DNA from: Actinomycetota bacterium
GTDB taxonomy: Bacteria > Actinomycetota > CADDZG01 > WHSQ01
NCBI GenBank assembly: GCA_009379915.1
Contig: WHSV01000033.1
Span: forward strand, 1 to 33,815
DNA: 33,815 bases
Reading direction: 5' to 3'
The first letter of the stretch is position 1. Each line of letters opens with the position of its first letter. The notes beneath the pieces were generated by a model that was not told the origin of the DNA, did no database searches, and saw only the letters and a list, made by a program, of their open reading frames with translations. This document shows positions 3,651 to 27,861 of the stretch, one piece after another. Position numbers and translations under genes: made by a program.

Positions 3651-4254
3651 GCTCCGCTAACTGGTTGGCTGGGTTCGGCTCTGGTTATCGAAGGGCCCGT
3701 CACCCTGCGTATTCGTCCCGCGCCGTACGGTTCCCTTCCCGGGTGCGAAAAAACCTGCCCGGTTAGTCGGTTTTCTTGGAGCTCAGGCGGTGGTGTCGGC
3801 CGAAAACCCCAAAGGCAGCACCGAAGGCGGAGATGGGGGGTGTTCGGTTTCGTGTACGCCGGTCCGGACGGTGCGGGGGCCGGAAACCCAAAACCGGCAC
3901 CGAAGGGAATTTGGGCTGCTCGCCTCGGTCTTGCGGGTCCGGCGGGGGGCAAGATCGAACCATTGCCGAATATGTTCGCTGTTCGACCATCACGGGCAAG
4001 AGAACAGTCGAAGAGGCTCCCACCGCACTCGCGGCCATAGGTTCGACCTGAGACGACGGCCAGAGTCGGTGAATGGTCGAAAGTTCACAACCAAGCCGGA
4101 GCGGGCCCCGAAAACCTCGCCCCGCACCCACTTCCCCCGTCGATGCTCGGTTTTGCCTTTGTCTTGTTCCGGAGCGGGCCCCGAAAACCGGCGCGCGGCC
4201 AACCCATCGCCCCCTTTGATGCTCGGTTTTGCGTTTGACTCGACGGCAGCGGCC
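3651..4254. repeat. Non-coding region with degenerate 73-80 bp stem-loop repeats
   Basis: No convincing gene is present between the PhoX terminator and the aldehyde dehydrogenase stop. Two tandem copies of a 73-bp element start at 4096 and 4169; both begin CCGGAGCGGGCCCCGAAAAC and both carry GATGCTCGGTTTTGC about 45 nt later. Two related, more diverged copies start at 3798 and 3878 (80 bp apart), with GGCCGAAAACCCC and GGCCGGAAACCC plus CACCGAAGG. Within a unit AAAACC(G) and (C)GGTTTT can pair across a loop of about 33 nt, for example 4184-4190 with 4224-4230. On the minus strand the last units directly follow the aldehyde dehydrogenase stop and could act in termination or RNA stability. The function is unknown. 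Confidence 0.6.
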
Positions 4255-25156: not shown

Positions 25157-25882
25157 GTGGTCGACTCCGCCGAGGACCTCTACGGGTTGCCGCTGGACGA
25201 GTTCACCGCCGCTCGAAACGCGCTGTCGGCCGAGCTCAAGAAGGCCGGCGACGACGAGTCGGCCGCCGCGGTCAAGTCGTTGAAGAAGCCCCCGGTCAGC
25301 GCATGGGCGATCAATCAGCTCGCGCGATCAGACTCGGACGACGTGGCGGCCCTGCTCGAAGCGGGTGAGCGACTGCGTCGCGCCCAGGACTCGGTGATGG
25401 AGGGATCGGATCCGGCGGGTCTTCGCTCGGCCATGGCGGATCGGCGTGAGCTGGTCACGGAGCTGGCGCGGCGAGCGGCCAAGACGCTCGAGAAAGAGGG
25501 GGCCAAGCCCAGTCGAACCCACCTCGACCGCATCTCGGCGACCCTCATGAACGCGGCCGTCGACGACGATGCGAGGGAGGCTCTGCGCTCGGGAACTCTG
25601 GCGGCCGACGTCGATGCCACCGAGGAGCTCGGCGGAGCCTGGACGCTTGCTGCGGTCCCGGACCTGGACGAGCGGCCCGCGGTCGAGGTGCGCGCCGCCC
25701 GCAAGGAGGCCGAGCGGCTGAAGCGCGAGGCGGACGACGCCGAAGCGATGGCCGCCGAGATGGCCCAGGAGGCCGAGCGAGCCCGCAGCATCGCGGACCA
25801 GGCGATGCAGGCGGCCTCCGATGCGCGCCGATCGGCGCAGGAGGCCCGACGCCGAGCCAACGAAGCGCGCCACAACCTCTGA
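25157..25882 (+). CDS. Conserved actinobacterial protein with C-terminal coiled coil
   Basis: 241 residues from GTG 25157, with GGGGAGG 8 nt upstream in the end of the preceding gene. The N-terminal part (LYGLPLDEFTAARNALSAELKKAG, PPVSAWAINQLAR) is a conserved actinobacterial signature of unknown role. Residues 170-241 are a continuous Ala/Glu/Arg-rich coiled coil (KEAERLKREADDAEAMAAEM, QEARRRANEARHNL). No membrane segment or enzyme motif is present, so a structural or scaffolding role is possible. The tandem array begins about 160 nt downstream. Confidence 0.78.
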   Translation: MVDSAEDLYGLPLDEFTAARNALSAELKKAGDDESAAAVKSLKKPPVSAWAINQLARSDSDDVAALLEAGERLRRAQDSVMEGSDPAGLRSAMADRRELVTELARRAAKTLEKEGAKPSRTHLDRISATLMNAAVDDDAREALRSGTLAADVDATEELGGAWTLAAVPDLDERPAVEVRAARKEAERLKREADDAEAMAAEMAQEAERARSIADQAMQAASDARRSAQEARRRANEARHNL

Positions 25883-26041
25883 ACTGGGGGACGCCGAGCC
25901 CGTCGAGCAACGACCAGTTGCCGTGGCAGTGGAACTGGACGAGCCCACTCACAGACATTCTTGGCTGCGACGAGCAACCGTCCCACCCGTCGAACCAGGG
26001 TCGTCTCATATATGTCTCCTATGTCTCCCGGGAAACCCTGC

Positions 26042-26688
26042 TGGTCGTACTGGTCGTAGTGGTAGGCACCGACCGCACCGACCGCACCGACCGCGGGCCC
26101 GGATCAGAGCCGCCCTCGCCCACCGCTCGAGATAGGTCTCTCGAGGAAATTCACTGGTCGTACTGGTCGTAGTGGTAGGCACCGACCGCACCGACCGCAC
26201 CGACCGCGGGCCCGGATCAGAGCCGCCCTCGCCCACCGCTCGAGATAGGTCTCTCGAGGAAATTCACTGGTCGTACTGGTCGTAGTGGTAGGCACCGACC
26301 GCACCGACCGCACCGACCGCGGGCCCGGATCAGAGCCGCCCTCGCCCACCGCTCGAGATAGGTCTCTCGAGGAAATTCACTGGTCGTACTGGTCGTAGTG
26401 GTAGGCACCGACCGCACCGACCGCACCGACCGCGGGCCCGGATCAGAGCCGCCCTCGCCCACCGCTCGAGATAGGTCTCTCGAGGAAATTCACTGGTCGT
26501 ACTGGTCGTAGTGGTAGGCACCGACCGCACCGACCGCACCGACCGCGGGCCCGGATCAGAGCCGCCCTCGCCCACCGCTCGAGATAGGTCTCTCGAGGAA
26601 ATTCACTGGTCGTACTGGTCGTAGTGGTAGGCACCGACCGCACCGACCGCACCGACCGCACCGACCGCACCGACCGCACCGACCGCAC
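26042..26688. repeat. Tandem array: five 113-bp units plus a partial sixth
   Basis: Units begin at 26042, 26155, 26268, 26381 and 26494 and look identical by eye; a sixth starts at 26607 and breaks off at about 26688. Each unit contains three 9-bp TGGTCGTAN-type words, three copies of CACCGACCG (six in the last unit, 26632-26685), the palindromic GCGGGCCCG and a perfect hairpin CTCGAGA-N6-TCTCGAG. The unit length is not a multiple of three and every frame hits a stop, so it is not coding. The array lies between two convergent genes. GG-rich spacing on either strand would allow two-tier G-quadruplexes. Imperfect inverted sequences flank it (26023-26036 and 26689-26705). Confidence 0.92.
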
Positions 26689-26743
26689 GTTTCCTGAGGA
26701 GAGACCCTGTGCGCGCTTTTGAGGAGGTTCGTGCTCGGCACGT

Positions 26744-26773
26744 GGCGAGGCCCCCGGAATCCCGGGCCTCGCC
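26744..26773 (-). terminator. Terminator of the secreted protease gene
   Basis: GGCGAGGCCC (26744-26753) and GGGCCTCGCC (26764-26773) form a perfect 10-bp GC-rich stem, 15 nt after the protease stop codon on the minus strand. No U-run follows. Confidence 0.65.
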
Positions 26774-26788
26774 ATGGACAAGCTGGAT

Positions 26789-27664
26789 CTAGTAGAGCGG
26801 GTCGGGGATCAGGCTCGCCGTCGAGACGGGGCCCGCCAACGCCTCCATCCGGCTGATCGTCGTCCCCGCGATGAGGGCCGGGAGATAGTCGGTGCCGACG
26901 ACCAGGTGGGTCAGGTTTCCTGCGGCCGCACCCGTTGCGTTGCGAACCCCGGAGCCCGAGTCGCCGGGCGAGGCAGCGCCGTCCCAGCCGTAGGCCGCGT
27001 TGTTGTTACCGGTGTCGCCGGGACCCGTGTAGGTCACCAAACCGGCGCGCGGCGTTCCACCGGTGCCGATCACGAGACCGTGACCGGAATGTACGACGGC
27101 GTCGCCGAACCGCGGGTTCGCCGAGCCGGTCGGACCCGCCCAGTGGGCCATCGACGGGTTCACGTACTGCTGCATCGCCGGATAGATGTCGATCAATGCG
27201 AAGTCGTCGCCGATGCCGTTGTTGCGCCTCAGCGAAACAGTTCCTATGTTCATGAGAAGGCCGGGCGCGGCGACGATGGTGACCTCGTCACCGACGTTCG
27301 CACAGTGACCGGCGGTTCCGATCTCGGTCCCGTTGCCGAAGACGAAGTTCGTCGTGCAACCGGCAGGAAAAAGAATCCACGATCCCGGACGGATCCCGGT
27401 GAAGGCGAGCCCGCTCGCCGGAATCTCGAGGTCGACGCCTTCGGGGACCGCGACCGTCTTGCCCTTCTTGCCCGCGGCCACCGCTCTGCGATGCAGCTCG
27501 GCCGTATACCAATCGGGAGCCTCCTCCTTCAGCTCGACGGCGCGCGCGAAGTCGGGACGAGCGAGCGCCCCTCCGAGAAGCTTCGGAGACTTGGCCCCCG
27601 CCGTCGTGAGGGGCAAACACAGCATCGCTGCAAGTGCTGCTACGAGAACGAACTTGAGTCGCAT
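26789..27664 (-). CDS. Secreted trypsin-like serine protease (S1 fold)
   Basis: 291 residues from ATG 27664, with AAGGAG 6 nt upstream. Sec signal peptide MRLKFVLVAALAAMLCLPLT followed by AGA cleavage site. A propeptide-like stretch of about 70 residues precedes the protease domain. Catalytic residues are His120 in GTAGHC, Asp154 in GDDFALIDI and Ser236 in SPGDSGSGV; Cys103 and Cys121 may form the disulfide next to the His, as in S1 enzymes. Substrate preference cannot be stated. It is a single-gene unit with its own terminator. Confidence 0.88.
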   Translation of the reverse strand: MRLKFVLVAALAAMLCLPLTTAGAKSPKLLGGALARPDFARAVELKEEAPDWYTAELHRRAVAAGKKGKTVAVPEGVDLEIPASGLAFTGIRPGSWILFPAGCTTNFVFGNGTEIGTAGHCANVGDEVTIVAAPGLLMNIGTVSLRRNNGIGDDFALIDIYPAMQQYVNPSMAHWAGPTGSANPRFGDAVVHSGHGLVIGTGGTPRAGLVTYTGPGDTGNNNAAYGWDGAASPGDSGSGVRNATGAAAGNLTHLVVGTDYLPALIAGTTISRMEALAGPVSTASLIPDPLY

Positions 27665-27861
27665 CGGCGCTCCTTGGTAGCAAGACGGCATCCCAACCGA
27701 GACCGTCTGGGTCGGCTGCTAGGTAGGGATTCGCCCTAATTAGTCACGGTTCCTGCCTCGAGACCGCGCCGGAGACACCCCCAGAAGCGGTGATCGGCTG
27801 GTCGCTGGTTGATGTCGTACGAACCTGCAAGAATCCGCTGAAAAAAGGGGAGGGAACTTCG

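Follow-up and report, generated by a model that had tools for sequence, protein, structure and literature searches.

A 113-bp tandem array between convergent genes as a probable expanded member of a dispersed, composite hairpin repeat in an Actinomycetota bacterium

BOX elements, in the excerpt of PMC3049150 cited here, are small composite interspersed repeats of pneumococci in which a variable number of internal tandem modules lies between end modules; they are predicted to form RNA stem-loops, are over-represented between convergent genes and are viewed as parasitic. REP sequences and BIMEs, in the part of PMC3733652 drawn on here, are extragenic palindromes that occur as singles and in arrays, mainly in convergent or same-strand gaps, and REPs are defined by a tag and often accompanied by a RAYT.

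The window analysed is the 33,815-nucleotide stretch that forms contig 18 (C18) of a 3.39-Mb genome in 158 contigs, 95% complete. We conclude that the array it carries between two convergent genes probably belongs, in expanded form, to a dispersed family of composite hairpin repeats that are non-coding and carried intergenically by the lineage. BOX elements are the closest in kind, since here too end modules enclose a variable set of internal tandem modules and the element is dispersed between genes; the likeness drawn here is one of architecture. The element differs from BOX in its host lineage, in an internal module that carries the 3′ end of a host gene and in a hairpin laddered in 9-bp steps. 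With REP and BIME sequences, as excerpted, it shares palindromes, gene context and occurrence as singles and arrays, but its unit is larger and no constant GTAG/CGTC tag stands at the hairpin foot in our alignment (A1), where GTAG appears only near the apex and not in every copy. Unlike REPs with a RAYT, it has no matching Y1/RAYT-type transposase in the genome: PF01797 (Y1, IS200/IS605-type), the only transposase family searched, gave 0 matches in the 95%-complete genome, and a control search was positive in 5 of 14 well-known genomes. Minisatellite or VNTR loci resemble it in having exact tandem units in numbers that vary from locus to locus, whereas the array here is nested within a dispersed, modular-ended element. 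The kind itself is already known; the dprA-derived module and the 9-bp ladder are new in detail.

Structure of the array

The first-pass annotation had described a 113-bp array with nested 9-bp repeats between convergent genes, and that description is borne out. Direct self-comparison gave an exact lag-113 run of 619 bases (26041-26659), and TRF returned 5.5 copies (5.48) of period 113 with 100% matches over the same interval; the five full units are one identical sequence. Each unit runs from CTGGTCGTACTGGTCGTAGTGGTAGG through (CACCGACCG)3 and a spacer of about 40 bp to the hairpin CTCGAGATAGGTCTCTCGAG. Within the array TGGTCGTA occurs 12 times, CACCGACCG 21 times (3, 3, 3, 3, 3 and 6 per tract) and CTCGAGATAGGTCTCTCGAG, the CTCGAGA hairpin, 5 times. 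The array had also been called not codon-periodic, and we agree: 113 is not divisible by 3, and ORFs running across the array are short, with a shift of frame between units. The features of the locus are as follows.

25157-25882, + strand: left neighbour gene, 241 aa, no Pfam family above cut-off, 3′ end toward the array
25900-25985, − strand: relic of the start of a dnaE-type polymerase gene, first ~28 codons (SVSGLVQFHCHGNWSLLDG against SVSGFVQLHCHSNWSLLDG at C32)
26023-26040, no strand: resident C32-type element, left outer arm, GTCTCCCGGGAAACCCTG
26041-26659, no strand: tandem array with exact 113-bp period (TRF and self-comparison)
26041-26093, no strand: first core, left arm CTGGTCGTACTGGTCGTAGTGGTAGG plus (CACCGACCG)3, a 9-bp-phased hairpin
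26095-26135, + strand: first spacer, a copy of the final ~40 bp of dprA with its stop codon, recurring each 113 bp
26126-26145, no strand: CTCGAGATAGGTCTCTCGAG hairpin, with further ones at 26239, 26352, 26465 and 26578
26632-26685, no strand: final 9-mer tract, (CACCGACCG)6
26686-26724, no strand: resident C32-type element, right outer arm and flank, with GTTTCCTGAGGAGAGAC inside
26743-26774, − strand: separate G+C-rich hairpin 3′ of the right neighbour gene
26789-27691, − strand: right neighbour gene, 300 aa, sub-cut-off Trypsin_2 similarity, 3′ end toward the array

Elsewhere, a 76-bp repeat of 1.9 copies with the motif TCGATGCTCGGTTTTG lies at 4096-4237 of the window. The motif is also intergenic at contig C82 (L015 near 2228), and it may represent a second small intergenic repeat family.

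A dispersed family and the host gene ends within it

A search of the genome for further copies, as had been proposed, found that the units are not confined to the window. Queried with one unit as DNA, the genome gave further copies on nine other contigs, and the core pattern (TGGTCGNAN)2-TGGTAGG-(CACCGACCG)n is present in 18 copies at 10 loci. The DNA search, a 25-base pattern and a covariance model trained on 14 own-genome copies agree on these 18 cores and 10 loci, the model with E ≤3e-12 for all of them. C18 holds six cores, C158, C95 and C103 hold two each, and C67, C32, C84, C82, C137 and C22 hold one each. The number of 9-mers per core varies from 1 to 9, in keeping with the earlier reading as a VNTR when loci are compared. 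The outer flanks are locus-specific; C158 and C103 have 37 bp on the left and about 110 bp on the right in common. Beside the C22 element lie two degenerate 9-bp-phased stretches (L017 2135-2180 and 2240-2285) whose words are unrelated to the family.

The five identical units in the window, against diverged copies in the dimeric arrays at C95, C103 and C158, support the recent expansion or gene conversion suggested before. The exact count of identical units might instead be a product of assembly, the true repeat having fewer or more. The assembly is in 158 contigs, the 619-bp exact repeat is longer than short reads and the five units show zero differences; however, tandem units with diverged copies exist at those three other loci, and the last unit in the window is distinct, with six 9-mers. 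We regard a misassembled count as unlikely, though a serious possibility, and the doubt covers the count only and not the family. Contig C95 contains a run of N (L010 3899-4092), a possible assembly gap.

The ends of the window element have a counterpart at C32. The left end matches it with 89% DNA identity over 119 bp, this left flank occurring only twice in the genome, and the right end matches with 85% over 41 bp. At C32 the element is a single copy between a DUF6504 gene (PF20114, E 2.2e-13) and a dnaE-type polymerase gene, and the C32-like left end in the window includes the first ~28 dnaE codons, ending at 25900, a relic that here sits between two unrelated genes. Imperfect inverted sequences had been said to bound the array: GTCTCCCGGGAAAC at 26023 and GTTTCCTGAGGAGAGAC at 26689 are present, with imperfect complementarity, but they are the outer arms of this C32-shared single-copy element and not separate array termini.

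The spacer in the 113-bp unit corresponds to the final dprA codons (GARIRAALAQRSR, followed by the stop) at C67, and the dprA locus itself bears the element. Most of the 12 relatives with a readable DprA end have a GARxRA-type C-terminus (L079, in the wrong frame, and L083, a partial match, were left out of the 12), which marks this ending as native to DprA. The dprA-type spacer lies between the cores at C18, C95, C103 and C158, that is, in 4 of 4 multi-copy arrays, and each of these arrays is thus a resident element with locus-specific ends that holds at least one dprA-type unit. We infer that the unit originated a single time next to dprA, that recombination between the 9-mer tracts carried it to other loci and that its amplification in the window is recent.

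Folding, gene context and possible roles

The left arm of the core (TGGTC...) is complementary to the right arm of CACCGACCG repeats, giving a hairpin in 9-bp steps. Ten stretches were folded, each compared with shuffled sequence. Folding was well above the shuffles at C82 (z −3.6 and −3.9 on the two strands) and C137 (z −3.9), and in G004, a genome of another genus in the same family, at C88 (z −5.9) and C25 (z −3.2) and more weakly at C40 (z −1.9). C84 (z −1.0), C32 (z −1.7 and −0.7) and the last window unit (z −0.6) did no better than shuffles; the weak z of several members may arise because expanded 9-mers yield strong shuffles. Pairing of the outer arms is weak overall, slightly higher within than between loci (permutation p 0.043), with the own partner on top in 1 of 10 loci. 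Considered as the terminal inverted repeats of a MITE, the outer arms show convincing pairing at about 4 of the 10 loci: C137, C32, C18 and C82 (ranks 1, 2, 3 and 4 of 10). RNAalifold on the own-genome copies returned no compensatory changes. Between the own genus and G004 both arms differ yet stay complementary, judged by reading and not by a formal score.

By ORF reading, three of the own loci lie between convergent genes (C18, C82 and C22), seven between same-strand genes and none between divergent genes. The neighbouring genes have no common theme and include Ku, xerC, malate dehydrogenase, arginase, an alpha-amylase-like gene and a PALP enzyme, among others. No Rfam family matched at gathering score across the whole window.

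A bidirectional terminator had been proposed for the array, and the elements could be selected bidirectional terminators or mRNA 3′-end stabilisers whose strength is tuned by copy number. All 10 own loci and all three G004 loci follow one stop codon or more, and divergent genes flank none of them. The element starts 0-9 bp past the stop at C22 and C95, lies at or just behind the dprA stop in two genera and lies upstream of xerC in the own genome. A hairpin behind stop codons is what makes a terminator possible. However, no T-run follows any hairpin in 25800-26900, an interval with 0 terminator-like sites (hairpin plus T-run) against a mean of 0.2 in shuffles, and the right gene has its own hairpin at 26743-26774. 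Divergent gaps make up only 15% of intergenic bases (gaps ≥100 bp in a 234-kb own-genome sample), so that 0 of 13 has a probability of about 12% and the absence of divergent pairs is not significant. Moreover, the C32 element lies between same-strand DUF6504 and dnaE, which may form one operon, and other relatives have unrelated sequence at the corresponding site. A terminator role for the element is possible, but that the elements were selected for it, with copy number tuning their strength, seems to us rather unlikely.

Two other functional readings can be weighed against the same data. A G-quadruplex region, also raised by the first-pass annotation, is not supported: four G3+ runs with short loops were found on neither strand, and loose G2 patterns numbered 6 on + and 39 on −. 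The 9-bp direct repeats phased in one arm would suit an iteron-like protein-binding array that organises or segregates the chromosome, but the very uneven 9-mer number (1-9), and by pattern the lack of the element in most family members, make this reading very improbable.

Relatives and the origin of the family

The own genus comprises this genome only. A search of 60 relatives gave weak matches in four (E 1e-5 to 6e-4, 31-45 bp), and the full 113-bp unit was found in none of the 60. G004, one of 15 relatives in the family, has matching architecture at C88 (behind dprA), C25 and C40, and its commonest right-arm unit, GCATCGACC, is one base off GCACCGACC. The covariance model, built without G004, hit its C40 with E 3.8e-6; C25 and C88 scored about 0.005, like chance matches elsewhere, and were recognised by architecture only. 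That the element stands at the 3′ end of dprA in both genera points to a copy of long standing at this site; by our own rough estimate (3 x 10 / 1600 gene gaps), coincidence would have a probability of about 2%. Other model matches fell in G003 (E 6.8e-4, inside an ORF) and G009 (E 0.0014).

A 34-base pattern had no match in 84,980 species genomes, a set from which the own genome is possibly absent. GGTC-9-GGTC / GACC-9-GACC was of limited use as a family-specific signature, as it matched in 122 of 296 genomes and many large genomes also matched the reversed control. Its matches numbered 24 in the own genome (G000), 7 in G004 (at 3 places) and 4 together in the other 14 family genomes, where they are scattered and no such element was found by pattern; many of the matches listed look coding. 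We set aside, as unproven, a broader class of elements that share the 9-bp phasing but have unrelated words: outside the family, the own-genome sample has 9 intergenic matches at lag 9, compared with 6 at lag 12 and 7 at lag 21. Nor did a viral origin hold, as 7 viral contigs matched a loose pattern and 0 had a 9-mer array, and plasmids and phages gave no match. A literature text search for the near-doublet of the 9-mer and its complement found no match.

Two 9-bp-phased sequences in relatives are not tied to the family. In G003 a GAGGCCACT palindrome of a different word lies behind dprA (L096 7634-7679), the position occupied in G000 and G004, and in G002 there is an intergenic, non-palindromic (GAGGGCATC)n 9-mer array (L100 12699-12770).

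Our best reading is of a lineage-restricted, non-autonomous mosaic intergenic repeat, BOX- or BIME-like in kind, that expands through its 9-mer tracts. At the window locus a C32-type resident element would have been placed between the two genes, bringing the dnaE start along; its 9-mer tract would then have taken in a dprA-type unit, and slippage or unequal recombination between such tracts would have multiplied this unit to five. Each transcribed copy could fold as a 3′-end hairpin and may incidentally stop or stabilise transcripts, and the host probably tolerates the copies without needing them. More speculatively, the dprA-adjacent hairpin might be a master element of long standing, retained at one position in both genera, and might duplicate itself with variable lengths of adjacent host DNA (the dprA end, the dnaE start) to new gene ends by template switching or single-stranded DNA recombination at 9-mer tracts, without a transposase; we consider this improbable.

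Read as the mosaic repeat that we favour, and not as a dedicated regulatory device, this is in other respects an unremarkable repeat family from a sparsely sampled lineage. Its donor loci, dprA and dnaE, are readable directly from the copies, which gives an example of how a repeat family is assembled from host gene ends and then amplified. The origin and spread of REP- or BOX-like repeats that have no evident transposase thereby becomes a testable question in one genome.
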